This document shows positions 585 to 37,959 of a DNA stretch of 38,074 nucleotides, in pieces. The notes beneath the pieces are model-generated. The model had not been told where the DNA came from. It saw nothing but the letters and a program-made list of their open reading frames with translations, and searched no databases. The DNA comes from a virus. Positions within the stretch are counted from its first letter, which is position 1, and every line of letters begins with the position of its first letter. Location: the IMG/VR virus record IMGVR_UViG_3300045241_000012, positions 1-38,074 of that record, one strand, 5' to 3'. A program made the position numbers and the translations under genes.

Positions 585-614
585 TTGACGAGAGCTAGCT
601 CTTGTCTTTATTAT
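585..614 (+). promoter_or_regulatory. rightward promoter with palindromic operator in the spacer
   Basis: TTGACG (585-590), an 18-nt spacer and TATTAT (609-614) read right. The spacer holds the perfect 12-bp palindrome AGAGCTAGCTCT (591-602), which extends to 18 bp with one mismatched pair. A dimer bound there would occlude the promoter. Transcription would begin near 621, leaving almost no leader before the ATG at 625. Confidence 0.55.
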
Positions 615-1008
615 GACTACCCATATGATTTTCCACGTGGCTAGGAAGAAGTCGAAAACTGAGATGCTTACCGTCAAGGTCGCCAAGGTTACTTATGCAG
701 AGTTCCAGGCAGCATGCGAGCTCCGTGGCATAAGCATGAGCGGCCTTTTCCATCTCTACATGGTTCAGACAATCCGCGAAGAACGGGACACCTCACCTGG
801 ACTCTTCGCTCAAACACTGGCCCGGATCTACCGGCACAAATACGAAGAGAAGGGCCTTGCAGCCCTCAATGAGGATATCCATGACACAGGCTCAACCGTT
901 CAGCCGATTGACCACCCGGAAGAGATCCGCAATCTTGAGGATCTGAAGAAGGCAACCAGGCGCACCGCTCGCCCCTCTCAGCCCAGACGAAAGACAAAGA
1001 GCGCCTGA
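613..1008 (+). CDS. RHH-like DNA-binding protein, divergent regulator
   Basis: A 131-residue protein whose residues about 17-55 resemble a ribbon-helix-helix or Arc-like unit (LTVKVAKVTYAEF, then a helix, then GISMSGLFHLYMVQ). The tail is basic and lysine/arginine-rich (about 110-131). No ribosome site precedes 613, and this ATG overlaps the predicted -10, so the ATG at 625 (the fifth residue here) is the more likely start on a nearly leaderless transcript. It is the first gene of the rightward operon leading to the integrase and faces the RHH gene at 306-503. I infer the DNA-binding half of a switch; the RHH match is suggestive rather than strong. Confidence 0.6.
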   Translation: MTTHMIFHVARKKSKTEMLTVKVAKVTYAEFQAACELRGISMSGLFHLYMVQTIREERDTSPGLFAQTLARIYRHKYEEKGLAALNEDIHDTGSTVQPIDHPEEIRNLEDLKKATRRTARPSQPRRKTKSA

Positions 1009-1072
1009 GCCCGAACTATCGATTTCATCTCCCTGAGATCGACAATCCATTCATTCTTTAAGGAGGTTCCTG

Positions 1073-1585
1073 ATGGGTCACGCCGATCAGAAGCAGACGT
1101 CCCCCTGCGTTGAATGTCCGCAAGGGCGTTGGCTGACAATTGAAAACAACAATCTCCATTACATCGGCCTATATGCAGGCGATCTTGTCTGCGTCGTGCC
1201 GGCGGTCTCATGGCCCGTCAAGGGTCCGGTACTGATGCGAGAGCAGGGCGAAGACAAGATCTGTTACGTCCAGACCGCCGATGACGGTAACTCTATTCGT
1301 ATCCATGAGCATGAAGGCTCGTGGAAATACATCCCGACCCATTCTGCAAGGCTTCAACTGGTGGGCTGGATCGTCAGGGTAGTCCGCTATCTTGAGGAAC
1401 CTGAGGCGCCATCCTTGCATCTTGTCGAGAACAAAGAATCATGCCTCGAAAAACAATCAGTTCATCCTGCGTCTCAGTCCATCCCCGGGGATACATCTAC
1501 GCCCGCGTCCTGTATTACGATGGCGGCGGCAAGCGGCGCGAATGGAGACAGCGTGCCGACACGAAGAGTGAAGCGAAAGAACTGA
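1073..1585 (+). CDS. LexA/S24-fold protein lacking the catalytic Ser-Lys dyad
   Basis: An exceptional ribosome site (AAGGAGG, 6 nt from ATG) opens this 170-residue protein. Residues about 27-110 follow the LexA/UmuD/CI C-terminal (peptidase S24) fold: the cleavage-site turn I-G-L-Y-A-G-D at 31-37 matches LexA I-G-I-M-D-G-D, and the end GWIVRVVRYL matches the last beta strand of that family. The nucleophilic Ser position is Asn27, and the Lys position falls on Gln67, so self-cleavage should be impossible. There is no HTH domain; two cysteines lie at the N terminus (CVECP). The last ~48 residues overlap the integrase in another frame and look unstructured. The role is probably a dimerisation or corepressor module partnering the RHH gene upstream. 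The fold call comes from pattern matching only. Confidence 0.55.
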   Translation: MGHADQKQTSPCVECPQGRWLTIENNNLHYIGLYAGDLVCVVPAVSWPVKGPVLMREQGEDKICYVQTADDGNSIRIHEHEGSWKYIPTHSARLQLVGWIVRVVRYLEEPEAPSLHLVENKESCLEKQSVHPASQSIPGDTSTPASCITMAAASGANGDSVPTRRVKRKN

Positions 1586-2924: not shown

Positions 2925-3365
2925 TCAGATTTCCGTTTCCCATAGAACCTTCTGAATGGTCGGAGCCTTATCAACCCGTGGACGATTGATGCGACTCCAG
3001 CTTCCGCCTTTGGTCCTCATCACTTCTTTGAAACCTGCGCCGCGAAGTGATGCACCGCCTTCTTCAGCGAGCGTGTATGTGATAAGCCTGCGATATCCTA
3101 GGGCAAAGGTTGCGCGGCGGCAGGCGCCTAACAGGAAGGATGAAGCGTTGTGGGTGCCATCAGTGCAAAGCCTATTCAATTCAAGCGTCCAGCCGTCATC
3201 GAAATGGCGCGAGACTGGACGCCCACACATTGCGACGCCAACGACATGATCACCGTCGTTGGCAGCAATTCCGAATTTCCAGCCGATTGACGGTATGTGG
3301 TGCCGATGATGCAAGCGGATGAATGTTGCCGCCTCTTCGAAGCTGATTGGTTGAAGCTCGAGCAT
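2925..3365 (-). CDS. XF1762-type GNAT-like protein
   Basis: A 146-residue protein with the hallmarks of the phage XF1762 family: HHRHHIPSIGWKFGIA near residue 19, GVAMCGRPVSRHFDDG near 43, LELNRLCTDGTHNASS near 61, GYRRLITYTLAEEGGASL near 90, and SWSR-R-R-DKAP towards the end. The fold is generally regarded as acetyltransferase-like (GNAT). It has been compared with the Mu Mom DNA-modification enzyme, but no biochemical role can be read here. It sits between attP and a strong terminator, convergent with the integrase, as a lone accessory gene. The ribosome site is weak (AAGG, 7 nt from ATG). Confidence 0.75.
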   Translation of the reverse strand: MLELQPISFEEAATFIRLHHRHHIPSIGWKFGIAANDGDHVVGVAMCGRPVSRHFDDGWTLELNRLCTDGTHNASSFLLGACRRATFALGYRRLITYTLAEEGGASLRGAGFKEVMRTKGGSWSRINRPRVDKAPTIQKVLWETEI

Positions 3366-4716: not shown

Positions 4717-4914
4717 ATGACCGGCGACGAACTCAGGCAATGGCGCGAGGGGCGGCATCTTACGCAGGCAGAACTGTCCAGGGAGCTAGGCGTGAAGTTC
4801 AATACGGTCTCCAGGTGGGAAGTGGGCACGCGCGCCGTGCCTTCCTTCCTGGAACTGGCGCTCGAGACGATCGGGCGCCGACTTAACGGCAAGAAAGGCA
4901 AATCGAAGAAATGA
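4717..4914 (+). CDS. Xre/CI-family HTH repressor (short)
   Basis: A 65-residue protein that is essentially one lambda-repressor-type helix-turn-helix domain: helix 2 LTQAELSRELG (15-25), helix 3 NTVSRWEVG (29-37), and a basic tail GKKGKSKK. It has no dimerisation or S24 domain, unlike full CI repressors, so it may use another partner. The gene starts at the predicted transcription start, without a leader. It is the best candidate for the immunity repressor acting on the three upstream repeats. Its stop overlaps the next gene as ATGA. Confidence 0.88.
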   Translation: MTGDELRQWREGRHLTQAELSRELGVKFNTVSRWEVGTRAVPSFLELALETIGRRLNGKKGKSKK

Positions 4915-5135
4915 GCGACTACAACACCAAACCAACCATCGAGAATGTCTTCGAAAAGCTGAATGCTTTGACTGAGGAGATGCGTCAAGGTTTCGCGGCG
5001 ATTGCGGTGCGCCTCGATCGAATCGAGGAACGCCTGACATCGCTTGAGCAGCGATACGACCATCAGGAAGATAAAATCGACATCTTTATCCGGGAAGTTC
5101 TCGATCTGAGGCGCGCCCTCAAACACCCCGTTTAA
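4911..5135 (+). CDS. coiled-coil protein cotranscribed with the repressor
   Basis: A 74-residue protein. Residues about 10-70 show a heptad pattern (VFEKLNALTEEM, LDRIEERLTSLEQR, KIDIFIREVLDLRRAL), so a helical oligomer is expected. It overlaps the repressor gene by 4 nt (ATGA). Because the repressor lacks an oligomerisation domain, a plausible but untested role is to supply one in trans. No enzymatic motif is visible. Confidence 0.7.
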   Translation: MSDYNTKPTIENVFEKLNALTEEMRQGFAAIAVRLDRIEERLTSLEQRYDHQEDKIDIFIREVLDLRRALKHPV

Positions 5136-5893: not shown

Positions 5894-8800
5894 TTAAAGG
5901 TAATAAGGCATCAACCACCAGATCGCATAAAGCTCGTCGGCGATCAGTCTGATTATCTTGTGTTGATTATCGGGATTCGGAATGCCGTTCGTTCCCGGAT
6001 ATGCGAGTTTGAAAACCGTCGCTTGTGGCTGACCTCCACCCCATCCGTTGAAGACGTCCGTTCCAACGATTGTCTGTACTTGTATGAGCTGATCGTAGCC
6101 TGTTGTGAGGGGAGTCAAGATACTCTGCACCGCTCGCATGTGAATGATGTCAACGACCATCCCCGGATTCGCTTGCGCAGACGGCAGTGTCAGATTTTGC
6201 GGACCATTGACGGTATCGACAATGACGGTTCGCCAATCCGTGCTGATCGCAGTTGTCGTATTTGCCGGCAGTTGTAATTCCTTGGCTTTGAATCGTGTTC
6301 CACCCGTCCCAACGATCGACCCCTGTGCGTTGACGGTAAAGACATCGGCGCTATTCTGGCGCACCCGTATCTTGTTCTTTGTGCCCGCAAAGCCTGGCGA
6401 GTTAATCCATAGTCCTTCGGTATCGGCGTCCTGAAGAATGAGTACTGCGGGATTGTTGGCGTTGAAGGTAGACTCGCGAGTAAAGGCTGGCGCGGCACTG
6501 CTGTTGCGCTGTCCGTGCAATTCAATAGTCCTGTATGAGCTGATCTGGAAGCGCGCATCATCGCCTGCCTGGAGCGTGTTCCAGTCAGCATAAACGTCGA
6601 AGCGTGTGCACTCACCGCTGTTCGATCCTGCCGTAGTCACGAGCGGAATGAATCCACAAGCACGAGGGCTCGAGGATGTGGAACTGCGCGGATAGATAAA
6701 CAGGCCATTGTAAAGATAGATCGCACCGACGCGGTTGGTTCCATTGCCGATGTTGTAGCTCGCATCGGCATTGAAATTGAACGATTGATTGATTGATGTC
6801 GTCGTCAGGTTCGATAATGCGGTATTGGCCCCGCTGCCCGCACCAGTCGGATCAAGCCATTGGAGTACAGGCGTTCCCGATGTGGTTGTATAAGCGAGCA
6901 CCTTCTGCGCGCCGCCTGTCGGATATGGCGTCGAGGATGGCCAGATATAAGGCAAGTTCTTGATGAAGGCGATATTGCCAGCTGAATCGATAGCGAATCT
7001 CTCACCAGCAACCGAATCCTGGTAATAGAAGGGATAGCCAGTTGATGCGGCCTTGGGATAAATCACCACGCCGTTGTCATTGACTGCCGGCCGTATCAAC
7101 AGGGCATGTCCCGCAGTCGGCACTTCATTGAAGGCTACGTGGAGGTTGGTTGTATCTTCGGCGAAGTTGCTGCTGCCGACGTTGGATGTAGTTGTGAAGA
7201 CTGCGAGCCGTCCGATCGTTCCGGGTCCAACCGCCCCACCACCGCCCGAAGCGGGATCAAGCCATTGCAGCTGCGGCGTGCCGGATGCCGTCGTATAGCC
7301 AAGCACCTTCATCGCGCCGCTAGCCGGATAGGTAATGGCAGTGGGCCAATTGTAGGACTTGGCCCTGATGACCGTGAGATCGCCGTTGAAATCAACCACA
7401 AATCTGTTCTGCGGTATCGAGCCGAAGCACTGAATGAAGTTGCCTGAATACGTTGACGGCGATTGAAGGGTCAGACCGTGAACGGCTGCGCCAAGGATTC
7501 GACAATAGAAGGCACTCGAGTTCGTCGTGCCGGTGTTTCCCGTAAGGTAATCATCGTTGAAGGTCAGCTTGCCGGCAGGACCATCTATCCAGAGCCGCCC
7601 CTGATTAGCACTGCCAGTGCCTGCGCGGATGAGCACATAGCCACCGCTCGTGCTGCCCGTATTGTTGAGCGCAGGTCCAAATCTGACGATGTTGTCCGTG
7701 CCGCAGGTTGCGAGCTCGCAGTAATTGGCCGGTGAAGCATAGAGCGTATTGACAACCTGGTTGTTGTCCACTCTGAGGCCCACGGCCATGATGTGAAACT
7801 CGGTGGTTGCATCCTCAGCCGGCGCATTCGTGATGGACGATCCCGTGGCATCGTACTTGACGATCCGGTTGGGCGTGCCTGGCGGGATCGATCCGCTGCC
7901 GCCAGTCATCGGTATCCACGAGAGCGTCACGGGCGCATTCGCTGTTGTCTGTCCTGTGTAACCAAGCACGTTAGGCGTAGTGCCTGTCGTCACAGGCGTG
8001 GTTGTCGGCCAGATATAATCACGATGCTTGATCCTCGTGATATCGCCGCTCCCATCAATAGCGAACTGCACGATATCGAGGGTTGTTGACATGCACTGAA
8101 GGAAGAATCCCGTATAAGCCGCCGCCTGCGTTGTGATCGTGATGGCGTTGTGTGAATTGCTGGCCGTTCGCAGAAAGAACGTGCTGTTATAAGTGTTCGT
8201 ATTGATGTCGTTGAAGGTCAGCTTCCCATTGATGCCATCTACCCAAAGCCGCCCCTTCTGAGATGTTCCCGTACCTGTGCGGATGCATACGATAGCACCC
8301 GTTGAGCCGCCAGTTGCCGCATCGAACTTCGGCCCGACATAGCAGACATCATCCGAGTCAACCATGATCATGTGCGCCGTGTTGCCTGTTCCATACACCG
8401 AGACGAGCGGCAGAGTGCGATCGAGCCATGCGCCAACGAGCTTGAAATGCACCTGGCCAAACTCAAATATGACGGGCGTATCTTCGATGTTAGTGCCGCT
8501 TGAGTTGTACTTCGTGAAGTGCTGCGGCGTGCCTGCGGCGACTCCGGTGACGGTGCCGGTCGTGCCAACGGTCGTCCAGACGCCGTTGTAGCCGAGCTTC
8601 AGCACTCCCGCGTCTTGGACCATCGTCATATAAGTCGCGCCGACTGGCGGCGGTAGCGTGCTGCCAGTCCCGCTCGTTGCGATGGGCGCAAATCCGAGCG
8701 GCGCGTGCATCCTGCCGCCGAAGTCGTGAATGCCCTCTTCCCACGCGCCATAGATATGCTTGCCCGCAGCCAGGCGGAAATTGGCGAAGTGCATGACGAC

Positions 8801-11275
8801 ATTGTTCGGTCCTGGCGTGACGTTCACCTGCACTTCAATCGTGCGGCCTGTGCCTGAGCCTAAGAAGCATCTGATATGCCCGACCTGCCAGGTATCCTGG
8901 ACAACCGCGAAACGGCGCGTTGACCATTGCAGAACTTCATCAATGCCGCTTGAGGGATGAAGGCGTACTTCGACGTAATAGCCAGTTGTCTCGACGCCCA
9001 GCTGTGCGTCAAGATTCCAGTCAAACGCACAAGTAAACAACCCCGGTCCTGTTGTATCCGGTATGGGAACAAGCTGGCTGAAGATCTTGGTTGCAAATGT
9101 CGATGGCGATTGAGTCGTAGCATCAACGTTGAGGAATGTGCCGCCTCGAGTCTGTGAGTTTCTGGTGATTGACCACCAGGTAGGATTGGCAATAGTCCAG
9201 CCCTCGGGCGCCGCGGTGCTGCCATCAAGAAGCCTGCCATTGACGATCAGATTGCGTCCGAAGAATCCATCATACGAATACTCATTGCCCGCAAGGCGAT
9301 TGGTGCGCGGATCAGCTGCCTGGTAAACACGGACGCCTGAGCCGATCCGAAGCCTGTCCCATGAGTTGTCCTGTTGCCAGAGATTGATATCACCGACGAT
9401 GAATGAATCATCGATTTGAATCTCAGATGACGTGTCGTTGATCTCAAACTGCGGGCGATCATTGAAGAAGCTATTCTTCACGGAGACGCAATGGCAATTG
9501 ATCAGCGCAAAGTCGGAGCGGTGCGCATTATCGAAAAGTGGCGGGCCAGCTGAGGTGCCGCCCCAGTTCTCGATGGTCATCGCAATGCAGTTTTCCATCC
9601 GAATGGCTGCACCACCTGGGCCTGCATTATCTTCCTCGTGAATCCCTATAAACCTGCAATTGGCGGCGTTGTATACCTTAATGGCGTTGACGTCAGAGTT
9701 GACGTTGGTTGCGCCAGATCCGGCATCGGCGAAGTTGCCTTGGATGGTGCTGCCATCAAGCACCGTATCATTCGCGCGATTGAGCAGGATCGATGCGACG
9801 TTGACCGGAAATACCTCGAGTTGCGTACCTGAAGCATTTGCCTGTGCTTTGTGCGCGAGCGTGACATTCGAGCTACTGTTGAAGACATCGATAAAGCTAT
9901 AGAGGTCGCCTGTGCCCGTCGCCGCCCCGTGAACGATGACGAACTTGCCCCGATCGTTGGCGGTGAAGCCTGAGCCGCTGAGCGTGCGCGAGCCTGCCGT
10001 CATCGAGCCCGTGACTGTGCGCTTCGAATCGGACGGACCTGCCGAGATAGCCTGATCAAAGGTGGAATCTGTGATGGTGTTGGCATTCGGCTGCTTATTC
10101 GGTGAGATGGTATCCGGCCCGACGAATGCAACATGGCCTGACTTGTTCTCACGGAAGATGCACTGGCTGATCCAGCTTACTTCCATATTGTCAGACCAGA
10201 GTCCGAACCTGCCCCATCCGATGATGCGGCACCGCTGAAGCACGAAGTTGTTATAGATGCCAGTATAGTCAGGCGCCGTCATTCTGATGCCGATGCCCCT
10301 GCTATTTGCATCAATCGTGCCTGAGGTATTGCCGATGGTGCCGGTTGCAATCGTCAAGTCCAGCAACACCATCGAATCAATCTTCAGGTCCGATGTTGGG
10401 ACGAATCCATCGCCGCCATGCTGAAAGACGAACTGCGACTGATCCCATCCCGAGCCATGGATGACGATGCTGAAGCCTTCTGATGTTGTCGGCAGCGTGA
10501 TCGAAGATGTCAGCCGGTAGTAGCCCGGCGGCATCGTAAGATCGCCCCTGGGGGCTCCGGCGTTGTTGATCCACGCCTGAACGGCTGCAGTGTCATCAGC
10601 CTGGACGACCGTAAACGGACCTGGCATAAACGGCCCCGCTGCAAGCGTGATCGTCTTGCCATCGGCTGAGACTGCCGTGCAGGTCGTGACGAGTGGCGAA
10701 CCCGAGACGCCAGCACCAGCGATGTATATACCCTGCCCCGGCTGAAGCTCGAGCGTCGTTGCAAGAACGATATCGGTGCCGCTGACGGTCGCAGTCGTGA
10801 CGCCGATCTGACCGGAAGCATTAAAGTCCGTTTTCAGATTGAGCATCCCCGTTGGGACGCCAAACGTGGTCAGATCGCTTTCACCGAATACGGCATCATC
10901 CTTGATCTGGAATGACTGCAAAAGATTCAGCGCGGGCCGCGGCGTCGGGACTGTGCCGTATGAATAGCCGTGATTGACGCGAAGCTGTTGGTAGAAGTTG
11001 CTTGTGCCGCCGCCTGATCCGACTCCGAGAGCACTGATCGTGTATGGCGTGGCATCACCAGGCCCGCCCATGAATCCCTGCCCACGGCCCCCACGAGGAA
11101 CGCAACGCAAAACGATATCGGCATCCGTGGGAATCGGCAGCAGTACCTTCTGAGCAGTCCCGATGGTGAACGTGCCGAGCAGTTGCGAACGCTGCACAGG
11201 ATCCGCCGCATAATGCCAATAAACGTCAGCATTGTGCGTCGTAACTGTCTTATCGGGATTGATGATGTCAGCCAT
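5894..11275 (-). CDS. giant tail fibre/spike with beta-helix and repeated modules
   Basis: At 1793 residues this is the largest protein. Residues about 1-75 look like a tail-attachment domain. About 150-600 read as a right-handed beta-helix of the pectate-lyase superfamily, opening with D-D-T-A-A-V-Q-A-W-I-N and M-P-P-G-Y-Y-R-L. About 670-860 look like a carbohydrate-binding-type beta sandwich. From about 915 to 1480 a module recurs, each beginning with GT-P/I-G-R-like segments (near 917, 1133, 1353) and containing a YxWP...VLGYT...LSW/LQW motif (near 1092, 1316, 1450). It sits after the tail-tip gene and most likely binds the host surface polysaccharide. Depolymerase activity is possible but no catalytic residues can be assigned. 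Confidence 0.85.
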   Translation of the reverse strand: MADIINPDKTVTTHNADVYWHYAADPVQRSQLLGTFTIGTAQKVLLPIPTDADIVLRCVPRGGRGQGFMGGPGDATPYTISALGVGSGGGTSNFYQQLRVNHGYSYGTVPTPRPALNLLQSFQIKDDAVFGESDLTTFGVPTGMLNLKTDFNASGQIGVTTATVSGTDIVLATTLELQPGQGIYIAGAGVSGSPLVTTCTAVSADGKTITLAAGPFMPGPFTVVQADDTAAVQAWINNAGAPRGDLTMPPGYYRLTSSITLPTTSEGFSIVIHGSGWDQSQFVFQHGGDGFVPTSDLKIDSMVLLDLTIATGTIGNTSGTIDANSRGIGIRMTAPDYTGIYNNFVLQRCRIIGWGRFGLWSDNMEVSWISQCIFRENKSGHVAFVGPDTISPNKQPNANTITDSTFDQAISAGPSDSKRTVTGSMTAGSRTLSGSGFTANDRGKFVIVHGAATGTGDLYSFIDVFNSSSNVTLAHKAQANASGTQLEVFPVNVASILLNRANDTVLDGSTIQGNFADAGSGATNVNSDVNAIKVYNAANCRFIGIHEEDNAGPGGAAIRMENCIAMTIENWGGTSAGPPLFDNAHRSDFALINCHCVSVKNSFFNDRPQFEINDTSSEIQIDDSFIVGDINLWQQDNSWDRLRIGSGVRVYQAADPRTNRLAGNEYSYDGFFGRNLIVNGRLLDGSTAAPEGWTIANPTWWSITRNSQTRGGTFLNVDATTQSPSTFATKIFSQLVPIPDTTGPGLFTCAFDWNLDAQLGVETTGYYVEVRLHPSSGIDEVLQWSTRRFAVVQDTWQVGHIRCFLGSGTGRTIEVQVNVTPGPNNVVMHFANFRLAAGKHIYGAWEEGIHDFGGRMHAPLGFAPIATSGTGSTLPPPVGATYMTMVQDAGVLKLGYNGVWTTVGTTGTVTGVAAGTPQHFTKYNSSGTNIEDTPVIFEFGQVHFKLVGAWLDRTLPLVSVYGTGNTAHMIMVDSDDVCYVGPKFDAATGGSTGAIVCIRTGTGTSQKGRLWVDGINGKLTFNDINTNTYNSTFFLRTASNSHNAITITTQAAAYTGFFLQCMSTTLDIVQFAIDGSGDITRIKHRDYIWPTTTPVTTGTTPNVLGYTGQTTANAPVTLSWIPMTGGSGSIPPGTPNRIVKYDATGSSITNAPAEDATTEFHIMAVGLRVDNNQVVNTLYASPANYCELATCGTDNIVRFGPALNNTGSTSGGYVLIRAGTGSANQGRLWIDGPAGKLTFNDDYLTGNTGTTNSSAFYCRILGAAVHGLTLQSPSTYSGNFIQCFGSIPQNRFVVDFNGDLTVIRAKSYNWPTAITYPASGAMKVLGYTTASGTPQLQWLDPASGGGGAVGPGTIGRLAVFTTTSNVGSSNFAEDTTNLHVAFNEVPTAGHALLIRPAVNDNGVVIYPKAASTGYPFYYQDSVAGERFAIDSAGNIAFIKNLPYIWPSSTPYPTGGAQKVLAYTTTSGTPVLQWLDPTGAGSGANTALSNLTTTSINQSFNFNADASYNIGNGTNRVGAIYLYNGLFIYPRSSTSSSPRACGFIPLVTTAGSNSGECTRFDVYADWNTLQAGDDARFQISSYRTIELHGQRNSSAAPAFTRESTFNANNPAVLILQDADTEGLWINSPGFAGTKNKIRVRQNSADVFTVNAQGSIVGTGGTRFKAKELQLPANTTTAISTDWRTVIVDTVNGPQNLTLPSAQANPGMVVDIIHMRAVQSILTPLTTGYDQLIQVQTIVGTDVFNGWGGGQPQATVFKLAYPGTNGIPNPDNQHKIIRLIADELYAIWWLMPYYL

Positions 11276-20571: not shown

Positions 20572-21849
20572 TTACGCGAAGGGAACTTTCGCGAATGCGC
20601 CAGGCCGTGTGACTGCAAGCGTGCCACGCAGTTCACAGACGATGGTTGTGATGTTGCGGATGAGGTCGTCGTTCTTGAGGCCAACGATGAAGGTCACGCC
20701 CATGCGCTGGTAGAACGTCGCGTAGCTGAAATCACCAACGAGGGCGAAGCCGGCAGGCATATGCGAGTCCGAGACAACCGGCAGGCCGTAGATATTCGGC
20801 GTACCCATCTCGGTCGGTGATCCCCAAAGGTAGAAGGAGGCGGGCGGTGTGCCGATCTTCGATGTACGAACTGCCCACCAGTCAGCAGGATTCATGACTA
20901 CCGCATTGGGAACGCCATAGCCGGTGGAACTGACGGCAGCGATACCCTTCGCGATCATGTCGGCGGGTGATGTGGCGGCGACAAAGGTGGGGGTCTGAAT
21001 GCCCGCGAAGTTCAAAATCCCGCGTATCTGCGGAGTCGTGCCGTTACCGTTGAGAATGGAATCATCGAGCTTGTTGAGCAGCGCGCGACGAAGATCAAAG
21101 TCGATAACCGACCTGAGCTGCGGCAGATCATCAAGAGCCTGAAGGGTAACAGCAGTCCACTCGGCAAGCGTCTCGACCGGAGCATCAACCGGCGCCCAAC
21201 GTAATTGAATCTCAGGCTTGAGTGCCGCTTCAGCTGTCCAGTCAGGGCCGCCCGTTGGCGGCATGGTCGCCTGGTAATATCGGATGCTCCCGGCGCCGAC
21301 ATTGACGACGTTAATCAGCGGCAAGACTGTCGCAGGCGGAAAGACGTGCGGCACGAGTGCCAGTTCAGTCACTCGAGTGCCGAACTGCGTAGTGGTAATG
21401 GGGTCGCCGGCGGCTTTGACGCTAAGGCCGATGGCGTCATCGATCGTCACGCTGTAGGCCGTACCGCTGTGGTGGCCCTGATCGTGAACGGCCTTGTAGA
21501 TGGCCGATTCGATGAGGCTGGTAGACCAGGACTTATTGCTCGAGACAAGCGCAGTCTCCTGACGCTCGGCATCAAGGTTGCGGCCATTGTTGTTGGCAAG
21601 CGCAAGACCGGGACGCGTAACAGGCTTCAGGGATTTTGCCCGCTCGGCCTCATCGGCAGACTTGCGAGCTTCATTCGCATCATCGACGCTCTTGAGCTTC
21701 AGGTATTCAGTTTCGGCGACGGTGATCTCGTCATTGAGCTTGACGGCAGCTTCGAGCTCTTCGGTGGACGGTGATTCGATGGCAAATAGTTTATCGAGAT
21801 CGGCCCGCATCGTTCTGACCTTCTCGCCCGCTCCAGTAGCGATTGGCAT
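20572..21849 (-). CDS. major capsid protein, HK97 fold, with N-terminal delta domain
   Basis: A 425-residue protein immediately after the protease gene, the canonical position. Residues about 5-75 form the coiled-coil delta domain that is removed as the head matures (V-R-T-M-R-A-D-L-D-K-L...E-A-E-R-A-K). The rest is the HK97 fold, with A-A-G-D-P-I-T near 160, T-L-Q-A-L-D-D near 235, N-G-N-G-T-T-P near 262, G-Y-G-V-P-N-A-V-V-M-N-P near 300 and N-D-D-L-I-R-N-I-T-T-I-V near 393. The AAAGGAG site is 5 nt from the ATG. It is homologous to the gene at 23310-24248. Confidence 0.93.
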   Translation of the reverse strand: MPIATGAGEKVRTMRADLDKLFAIESPSTEELEAAVKLNDEITVAETEYLKLKSVDDANEARKSADEAERAKSLKPVTRPGLALANNNGRNLDAERQETALVSSNKSWSTSLIESAIYKAVHDQGHHSGTAYSVTIDDAIGLSVKAAGDPITTTQFGTRVTELALVPHVFPPATVLPLINVVNVGAGSIRYYQATMPPTGGPDWTAEAALKPEIQLRWAPVDAPVETLAEWTAVTLQALDDLPQLRSVIDFDLRRALLNKLDDSILNGNGTTPQIRGILNFAGIQTPTFVAATSPADMIAKGIAAVSSTGYGVPNAVVMNPADWWAVRTSKIGTPPASFYLWGSPTEMGTPNIYGLPVVSDSHMPAGFALVGDFSYATFYQRMGVTFIVGLKNDDLIRNITTIVCELRGTLAVTRPGAFAKVPFA

Positions 21850-22718: not shown

Positions 22719-23310
22719 CCTCGAAGACAATCTCGCACCGGCATCTCGAGCCGCATTGACTCGCACCTATCGGCGGCACCTGCTCGATCGGATAGACGCC
22801 GGCGAGATCGGGGCAGTCCGTGCAATGCTCGGCACCGGGATCAAGCACGCGCCTCACATACTGGCGCCCGTTATCGCTCTCACGCAGAACTGTGTGATTC
22901 GAATAAGAGGCGTAAAGCGATTCCTGGTACATACCCGCACGGTTGACCGTTTCAGCCGGCGTGACCTTGCCACTAATGAGGTCAGTTGCAAATCGCATCA
23001 GATAGCCGAGTTGCCTGCCGATGAAACTACCGACTCGCTGTAGGCGGGTCGCTGTCAGCGCCTCAGTGCCTCCGTAGGCTGCTGCGGCCATGGCCCCCTG
23101 ACCCAATCTGATCTCGGACTGCATTGCCATCTGAAAGTCACGGCCACTCATCAATCGGGCATTCAATAGCTCAGCCAAACGCTCAGTGCGACGGCTCGCA
23201 TTATCGACAGTCTCATTGATCCAGCGACGAAGCGTATCCGAGCGCACGGCCCTGCCCGTAGCCTTGTCGATGAATCGCTGCCGTGATTTTGACCAGGCGA
23301 ACTTCGGCAT
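22681..23310 (-). CDS. MuF-like minor head protein
   Basis: A 209-residue protein in the normal place for a MuF-type minor capsid protein, two genes before the protease. The C-terminal part has the conserved cysteine cluster: R-R-V-L-D-P-G-A-E-H-C-T-D-C-P-D-L-A-G near 155, then P-P-I-G-A-S-Q-C-G-S-R-C-R-C-E at about 179-193. The N-terminal two-thirds is helical. MuF-type proteins sit inside the head near the portal and are often ejected. It overlaps the stop of the capsid-like gene by 1 nt. Confidence 0.82.
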   Translation of the reverse strand: MPKFAWSKSRQRFIDKATGRAVRSDTLRRWINETVDNASRRTERLAELLNARLMSGRDFQMAMQSEIRLGQGAMAAAAYGGTEALTATRLQRVGSFIGRQLGYLMRFATDLISGKVTPAETVNRAGMYQESLYASYSNHTVLRESDNGRQYVRRVLDPGAEHCTDCPDLAGVYPIEQVPPIGASQCGSRCRCEIVFEDGISGTAEGAAA

Positions 23311-24248
23311 CAGGTAAGCGTCACCTTGTTGAGTGCAAGCGGCTGCACGACATAGAACGCGAGGCGGCTTTCACCGACGATGGTGACGATATTCTTGATG
23401 ATATCGTCGTTGACGTGGCCGATGATGATGGTCGCATCCTGCCTGCGATAGATGACGCAGCCGTTAACCAGATCACCGACAATGCCGGTATTGGCCGGCA
23501 CCGCATTCGAGTAATAGACCGGGACGCCGTAAAGCACCTCAGTCGCGCGAAACGGGTCGTAGCCGTAAGCGTAGCTTGGCGCTGCCGCTGTAATGGCCGA
23601 AGCCGCATTCGCAGGATTGAGCAGGATGGCATTCGGCGTATAGCCTGCGCCCCTGACAGCTGCGAGTCCTGCCTGGATGCTTGCCGCGCTCGCAATGGCT
23701 GCCGCCGGCGAAAGCATGCCGAATAGATTCGGCGACGTTCCATTGCCCGCGATAACCTGCGCCTCTTCGCCCTTGATGACAGCAACTCGCAGGCGGTTCG
23801 TGATGTCGTAGCCCGCCTGACGCGAATCATCTAGTGCCTGAGTTGTCACCTTGATCCACGCGGCAATGGTCTGCACCGGGACGAGAATGACACTTGCGTA
23901 ATCCAGGGCAAGCGCGGTTTTTACATCAGCAGTCAGCGTGGGCACGGCCAGCCCGAAGGCCGTTTCGCGCGTGATGTTAATGGTCGTCGCGTTTGTCGGC
24001 ACTTCAGTAATCAAATTGAGAAATGTGGCGAGCTGGCCGCGGGTGGACATGTAGCCGCCCTCATTGCTCACCATCGTGATCGGATCGCCCGCCGCTTTCC
24101 AGTTGAACGGCACATTGAGATTCACCGAGTACCTGTCACCGACGCGGTGATGATCACGCGCCAGGTATTCTTTGCTCGCAATGAAATGCTCACCGAGGGT
24201 GTGCGGGCGGGTGACTTCTTCGAGCTCATAACGTGTTGCTACGGTCAT
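23310..24248 (-). CDS. second HK97-fold capsid protein, no delta domain
   Basis: A 312-residue paralogue of the major capsid protein. It shares the same landmarks in the same order: A-A-G-D-P-I-T near 53, V-T-T-Q-A-L-D-D near 142, G-N-G-T-S-P near 170, G-L-A-A-V-R-G-A-G-Y-T-P-N-A-I-L-L-N-P near 193-211, Y-G-V-P-V near 234, and N-D-D-I-I-K-N-I-V-T-I-V-G-E near 280. It lacks the N-terminal coiled-coil delta domain. It has a strong AAGGAG site and lies between portal and MuF genes, an unusual location. Both copies look intact, so a mixed capsid, a vertex protein or an alternative head are possible. Confidence 0.88.
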   Translation of the reverse strand: MTVATRYELEEVTRPHTLGEHFIASKEYLARDHHRVGDRYSVNLNVPFNWKAAGDPITMVSNEGGYMSTRGQLATFLNLITEVPTNATTINITRETAFGLAVPTLTADVKTALALDYASVILVPVQTIAAWIKVTTQALDDSRQAGYDITNRLRVAVIKGEEAQVIAGNGTSPNLFGMLSPAAAIASAASIQAGLAAVRGAGYTPNAILLNPANAASAITAAAPSYAYGYDPFRATEVLYGVPVYYSNAVPANTGIVGDLVNGCVIYRRQDATIIIGHVNDDIIKNIVTIVGESRLAFYVVQPLALNKVTLT

Positions 24249-37528: not shown

Positions 37529-37741
37529 TTATCTCGGCGACGTGCGCGGGTCATTTGGGATGGACCCCTGGCCCCCGTCCTCACAGCGAGAGTTTGCACG
37601 CCGCCGCGCCGGGGAAGGGGTCCCCGTCCCACGCCGCATCTCGCATCTCCCGCAAAACGTTCCAAAGTATTCGCCGTCGATCCAGATCTCTCTGACTTCG
37701 ATATGCATGCCAGAGACGCCACATTGCTCGCAGTAGCGCAT
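37529..37741 (-). CDS. small zinc-ribbon protein
   Basis: A 70-residue protein with C-E-Q-C near 4-7 and C-G-R-C near 30-33, a four-cysteine zinc ribbon, and a basic, Arg/Ser/Pro-rich tail after about residue 38. Its ATG overlaps the RHH stop as TGATG. The ribbon region is convincing; the tail may be partly an extension without structure. Function unknown. Confidence 0.62.
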   Translation of the reverse strand: MRYCEQCGVSGMHIEVREIWIDGEYFGTFCGRCEMRRGTGTPSPARRRANSRCEDGGQGSIPNDPRTSPR

Positions 37742-37959
37742 CAGCTCCTCCGTACCTGGTCATGAATTAATACTTGCTGGCCTGGGAGCAGAGGACGCGG
37801 GGATGCGCCTTCAAGCCGCATGCCAATCCTGATGTAATGCTCGATGAGCCACGAAAGCGTGCAGTCCTGTTCGATGGCCCGCTTCTCCAGGTCTCGTCGT
37901 AGAGCCGAGTCCACGCGACAGTTGATCATTGAGGTGAGTCTTGCCTTGCGAGTGAACAC
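37741..37959 (-). CDS. third ribbon-helix-helix-like protein, spans the circle junction
   Basis: A 72-residue protein. Residues about 11-50 match an RHH unit (M-I-N-C-R-V-D-S-A-L-R-R-D-L-E-K-R-A-I-E, then C-T-L-S-W-L-I-E-H-Y-I). GTG start with GGAGGG 7 nt upstream and a TAGTG overlap with the Xis-like gene. The start lies in the terminal repeat, so on the circle this gene directly follows the gene at 12-227. Likely another small regulator or a plasmid-partition-like RHH. Confidence 0.68.
   Translation of the reverse strand: MFTRKARLTSMINCRVDSALRRDLEKRAIEQDCTLSWLIEHYIRIGMRLEGASPRPLLPGQQVLIHDQVRRS

Follow-up and report, generated by a model that had tools for sequence, protein, structure and literature searches.

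A free-standing, candidate S24-fold protein without a catalytic nucleophile follows an RHH-like gene in the immunity cassette of a temperate phage

The window analysed here, the 38,074-bp virus contig IMGVR_UViG_3300045241_000012 at its full length, encodes a 170-aa protein (p170) whose residues ~20-108 are likely to form a degenerate S24 (LexA/UmuD) domain, an assignment by sequence profiles that is supported but not proven. If the fold is indeed S24, p170 cannot cleave itself. We favor the view, at somewhat less than even odds, that p170 is an S24-fold accessory that modulates the 131-aa RHH-like repressor encoded directly upstream, which would not depend on it for function. A sequence-only reading of this DNA had pointed out both open reading frames, 613-1008 (+, 131 aa) and 1073-1585 (+, 170 aa), and the IGLYAGD turn and CVECP motif in p170, all of which are present as described.

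A direct terminal repeat of 127 bp is found in the contig, which therefore very probably represents a complete phage genome, circularly closed or permuted. The phage encodes portal, terminase, capsid and tail genes as well as a tyrosine integrase, and is temperate. Two separate proteins, 20572-21849 and 23310-24248 (−), have matches to phrog_10, a family of major head proteins (E 9.9e-44 and 1.7e-19, respectively), and inside the tail-gene block there is a 1,793-aa protein with repeated segments (5894-11275, −) that has no PHROG match at E<=1e-3. The features of p170 are as follows:

1060-1066, + strand: Shine-Dalgarno sequence AAGGAGG of p170, six bases before the ATG
1073-1585, + strand: p170, free-standing S24-like protein, 170 aa; open frame with coding signal
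1127-1396, + strand: S24-like domain of p170, residues 19-108, delimited by hhalign
1151-1153, + strand: codon of Asn27, at the catalytic Ser column
1439-1582, + strand: C-terminal tail of p170, residues 123-170, overprinting the integrase start; similarity to sister phages here is that of the int gene in another frame

We built a profile of 41 S24 domains (LexA, UmuD, lambda CI, P22 C2, the distantly related phage L048 and bacterial genomes) and compared p170 with it. In hhalign, p170 reached 86% with a score of 33.6 over 87 columns, above all controls, the best of which scored 25.9 among 700 shuffles and 25.2 among 522 unrelated real fragments. The value stayed at 70-86% when other domain bounds were used or the phage sequences were left out. 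The repressor domain of 186 CI gave 53% with the same profile, i.e., less than p170. In HMMER, p170 scored 8.3 bits; one of 20,000 shuffles was as good, and three unrelated real fragments equaled or beat it. The resulting P of ~5e-6 is fair for the single comparison, since S24 had been named beforehand in the sequence-only reading, and a database-wide E value would be unremarkable. On the other side, a small profile made of UmuD-like domains only (9 sequences) gave ~4%, and no S24 match to p170 was found at E<=10 in Pfam, PHROGs or NCBIfam, nor among PDB sequences.

AlphaFold2 run without homologues produced all-beta, sheet-like models of low confidence (pLDDT 40 for full-length p170 and 46 for residues 15-110). 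The rows returned for these poor models by Foldseek and VIA-align (C1QBP, OspA, sliding clamps) were set aside; neither an S24 nor an SH3b chain was prominent among them. A 155-aa protein of a related phage (L022:3525-3989) exceeds p170 in HMMER with the S24 profile (10.7 bits), and its hhalign score is 23.7 over 13 columns; its resemblance to S24 is probably due to chance. Homologues of p170, searched for at full length and with the domain alone, were not found in viral_contigs, phages or plasmids. Genome searches in four phyla retrieved chance-level matches only (out-of-frame pieces and SH3-like proteins), and their negative outcome carries little weight.

The proposal that Asn27 occupies the position of the catalytic Ser was borne out, since the HMM-HMM and MAFFT alignments both place it in the column of that Ser. 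There is no Ser, Thr or Cys in residues 23-31 (IENNNLHYI), i.e., at or near the nucleophile column; it follows that an S24-folded p170 would lack a nucleophile in any plausible register, making self-cleavage impossible. Gln67 had been assigned to the position of the catalytic Lys. The column depends on the method (C64 in hhalign, V66 in MAFFT, Q67 in the sequence-only reading), and so the exact residue is less certain than for Asn27; none of the three is Lys. K62 lies near this column and is irrelevant without a nucleophile. Residues 1-19 contain neither AG nor CG, hence no scissile bond, and there is no linker before the domain.

We next consider whether p170 is made. Over its full length, the p170 frame scores higher for codon usage than any of the other five. 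The gene is located between the 131-aa RHH-like gene, which has the same direction and lies 64 bp away, and the integrase gene, whose start it overlaps. The domain ends near residue 108, and the last 48 codons overlie the start of int in a different frame. Apparent matches to residues ~107-170 in two sister phages, L002 and L003, were rejected, because they reflect int in a different reading frame, and in L003 this stretch contains stops. Since similarity begins at the int start and the corresponding frame of L003 is interrupted by a stop, the tail seems to have arisen at a mosaic junction, where the p170 frame reads on into int. That p170 is a real, translated protein is the best explanation of these data.

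The cassette around p170 contains the following elements:

12-227, − strand: HTH_17 excisionase-like gene, 71 aa (Pfam HTH_17 E 5.9e-9; PHROG excisionase/regulator E 6.7e-7)
250-305: ACTAG repeats resembling operators, on the upstream side of the excisionase-like gene (ACTAGCCC at 250 and 288; repeat families D1 and D7)
306-503, − strand: RHH-like protein of only 65 aa, forming the leftward arm of the switch (RHH_1 E 0.024; RelB-like antitoxin model E 0.0056)
504-612: control region between the divergent genes; GACTA/CTAGTC repeats of operator-like appearance occupy 516-534 and 556-574
585-614 (+) and 571-542 (−): promoter-like hexamers in the divergent region
613-1008, + strand: RHH-like DNA-binding protein, 131 aa, candidate lysogeny repressor (RelB, RHH superfamily, E 0.06-0.17, residues 17-58)
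1441-2580, + strand: tyrosine integrase, 379 aa (Pfam Phage_integrase E 3.7e-22; PHROG integrase E 3.4e-55)
2584-2921, + strand: probable attP, in which a tRNA-Thr(CGT)-like core (2830-2873) is flanked by TTATCCGCA repeats, six in all, that resemble arm sites

As can be seen, the 65-aa RHH-like and excisionase-like genes are arranged leftward, and the 131-aa RHH-like gene, p170 and int rightward. The S24-like domain resides, as had been claimed, on a polypeptide of its own in the lysogeny cassette, directly after the RHH gene. The region downstream of int is very likely attP, because every genomic copy of the TTATCCGCA repeat, on both strands, is confined to it and because its core is also present in L002 and L003. 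A Mom-like DNA modification gene (2925-3365, −; PHROG E 1.6e-32) is located just past attP, and genes for an HTH_3 regulator and, after it, a coiled-coil protein (4717-5135, +) are found on the strand opposite to that of the genes around them.

The integrases of L002 and L003 are 77-79% identical to that of our phage, and both sister phages contain a leftward RHH gene, a rightward RHH gene and int, with p170 absent. The identification of the upstream gene product as RHH-like was supported by this comparison: the match of the 131-aa protein itself is weak, and the L002 protein in the same slot matches RHH_1 with E 5.6e-4. The rightward RHH protein of L003 is 125 aa long, and the leftward one has an RHH_5 match at the cut-off. 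RHH calls are thus weak one by one, yet consistent in three phages. A third RHH-looking protein of our phage, recognized by eye (37741-37959, −; 72 aa), is similar to the leftward RHH protein of L003 and has no Pfam match.

Both control regions of the phage are enriched in GACTA/ACTAG. Each of the three phages has its own short motif, GACTA/CTAGTC here, AGTTAAC in L002 and TGTC..ACA in L003 (the least clear), which recurs both between the divergent genes and ahead of the excisionase-like gene. These phage-specific repeats look operator-like and may be the cognate sites of the respective RHH proteins. Upstream of the int start codon the three phages cannot be aligned, and similarity starts sharply at that codon, which suggests that the cassette between the excisionase-like gene and int is exchanged as a unit. 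The immunity region would thus be cassette-like, with RHH proteins, operator-like repeats and accessory genes changing together exactly up to the int start codon.

Since p170 is missing from L002 and L003, which retain the RHH pair and int, the switch of the sister phages apparently needs no more than RHH proteins, and p170 appears to be an optional addition in this lineage. The claim that DNA binding and dimerization must be split between two proteins is not supported by this arrangement. In the model we prefer, the switch would consist of two divergent RHH genes in an exchangeable immunity cassette. Lacking a DNA-binding domain, p170 would act by binding another protein, most likely the presumably co-transcribed 131-aa RHH repressor, for which it would be a dispensable accessory subunit that influences oligomerization or stability. 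The lysogeny modules of L048 and ACA1/C5a, which also encode free-standing S24 proteins, are in line with such a role. The loss of the dyad could also mean that the gene is decaying, and p170 comes from one phage.

Several other explanations have to be weighed against this one. p170 may contain not S24 but a bacterial SH3-like (SH3b) domain in residues 53-107, preceded by a beta region unrelated to it. With its own profile, SH3b scores higher in HMMER (11.5 bits, reached by 0 of 20,000 shuffles and the best of 1,724 fragments), the R56-16-G72-12-W84 spacing is identical to that of SH3b sequences, and two of the chance-level genome matches are to SH3 proteins. However, hhalign gives SH3b 21% over 45 columns vs. 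86% over 87 for S24, one of 700 shuffles attains the SH3b hhalign score, Pfam PF08239 (bacterial SH3 domain) has no match in p170, and residues 20-52, including the G-L-x-x-G-D-L turn, are left unexplained. We prefer S24, since it accounts for the whole domain, and consider SH3b unlikely. At about the same low level we place the possibility that p170 is a decaying cargo gene at the mosaic junction that plays no part in the switch and whose main effect, if any, is translational interference with int. The presence of p170 in one phage only, the entry of its last 48 codons into int exactly where inter-phage similarity begins and the absence of a clear ribosome site before int in this phage speak for such a passenger; its own consensus ribosome site and coding-like frame free of stops speak against it.

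Models in which p170 is a more integral part of regulation were also considered. That the RHH repressor has the free-standing, catalytically dead LexA-type domain as a separate regulatory subunit, providing cooperativity or a non-SOS signal in trans, is doubtful, to much the same degree as the two preceding alternatives. A true split repressor, in which the RHH protein binds DNA, p170 is the obligatory dimerization/cooperativity domain, neither represses alone and the trigger is something other than self-cleavage, appears more improbable still, and we rate the accessory role above it. RHH proteins dimerize by themselves, p170 is absent from L002 and L003 although both contain int and the two RHH genes, and the repressors of ACA1 and L048 are not RHH proteins. 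What favors it is that the two genes are adjacent and co-directional with 64 bp between them, that in L048 a DNA-binding protein, an S24 protein and an integrase are encoded in that order, and that a non-covalent association has been proposed for ACA1 gp4 (PMC10612066). The explanation to which we give the least weight is that p170 acts in trans on other proteins, the dead domain pairing with host LexA or the CI of a rival prophage, or occupying RecA, and thereby blocking or poisoning cleavage or dimerization. It would make use of the fact that S24 domains pair with each other. Hex of phage 434, a protein from the lysogeny mRNA that modulates repressor autocleavage (PMC3564112), offers a precedent by its described function.

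S24 domains were not detectable elsewhere in the phage, and PF00717 at E<=10 matched neither p170 nor any other part of the genome. Since the nucleophile is missing from p170 and no other intact S24 domain was detected, induction by self-cleavage is unlikely, as had been predicted. The further conclusion that the phage would be SOS-independent does not follow, because a non-cleavable repressor can be inducible via a LexA-controlled antirepressor, the route by which SOS induction of 186, N15 and Gifsy proceeds (PMC3121763). No antirepressor was recognizable among the early genes tested, most of which match nothing. The suggestion that the CVECP cysteines act as another trigger found no support.

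Our literature search did not find a repressor that combines an RHH protein with a dead S24 domain. A free-standing S24-like phage protein is already known; what is new is the likely dead version after an RHH gene, seen in one phage. If true, the module can serve purely as a binding or oligomerization part, and the dead version could be used to study how prophages escape from SOS control.

A control region flanked by two divergently encoded RHH proteins also characterizes the P22 immI switch (Mnt/Arc), which, unlike the cassette described here, is not known to have an S24-like partner and is not beside int. A free-standing S24 domain apart from the repressor is found in two other phages, L048 and ACA1, which are independent precedents. 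L048, which shares the neighboring early gene used as a query, has the order DNA-binding-like protein (no Pfam match; CI-like by eye), S24 protein, integrase. Its S24 protein (L048:1468-1878, −, in the record of L028) is free-standing and UmuD-like (Pfam 61.7 bits); Cys stands in place of its catalytic Ser (SGDCM), whereas the Lys is kept, and it is possibly a Cys-Lys self-cleaving switch.

The closest parallel among described systems is Pseudoalteromonas phage ACA1 gp4 (C5a gp04), which, like p170, is an S24 protein without a DNA-binding domain, encoded in the lysogeny/early module apart from a repressor lacking S24. A 2023 paper proposed that this free-standing protein, possibly by associating with the repressor non-covalently, makes a split repressor SOS-inducible (PMC10612066). 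Unlike p170, ACA1 gp4 has an intact Ser (GNSM) and belongs to a separate transcription unit that is not beside the repressor, which is of the P2 HTH type and not RHH. With a weak RHH call, the S24-like and DNA-binding parts are separate polypeptides in one lysogeny module here, as proposed for ACA1. UmuD/UmuD′ and phage UmuD-like proteins also consist of a LexA-type domain without a DNA-binding domain, but UmuD has the Ser-Lys dyad and its partner UmuC, and there is no umuC beside p170. Phage 186 CI (PDB 2fjr, 2fkd, 7jvt) resembles p170 in its weak S24 match and its cI-int lysogeny operon and is induced by an antirepressor, not by self-cleavage (PMC3121763); in contrast to the situation here, its DNA-binding (HTH, not RHH) and oligomerization parts are in one polypeptide. 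Finally, phage 434 Hex, likened by description and not by sequence, is, as p170 would be, a second protein of a lysogeny mRNA whose gene overlaps a neighbor; Hex tunes prophage stability (PMC3564112) and, unlike p170, acts on a RecA-cleavable repressor.
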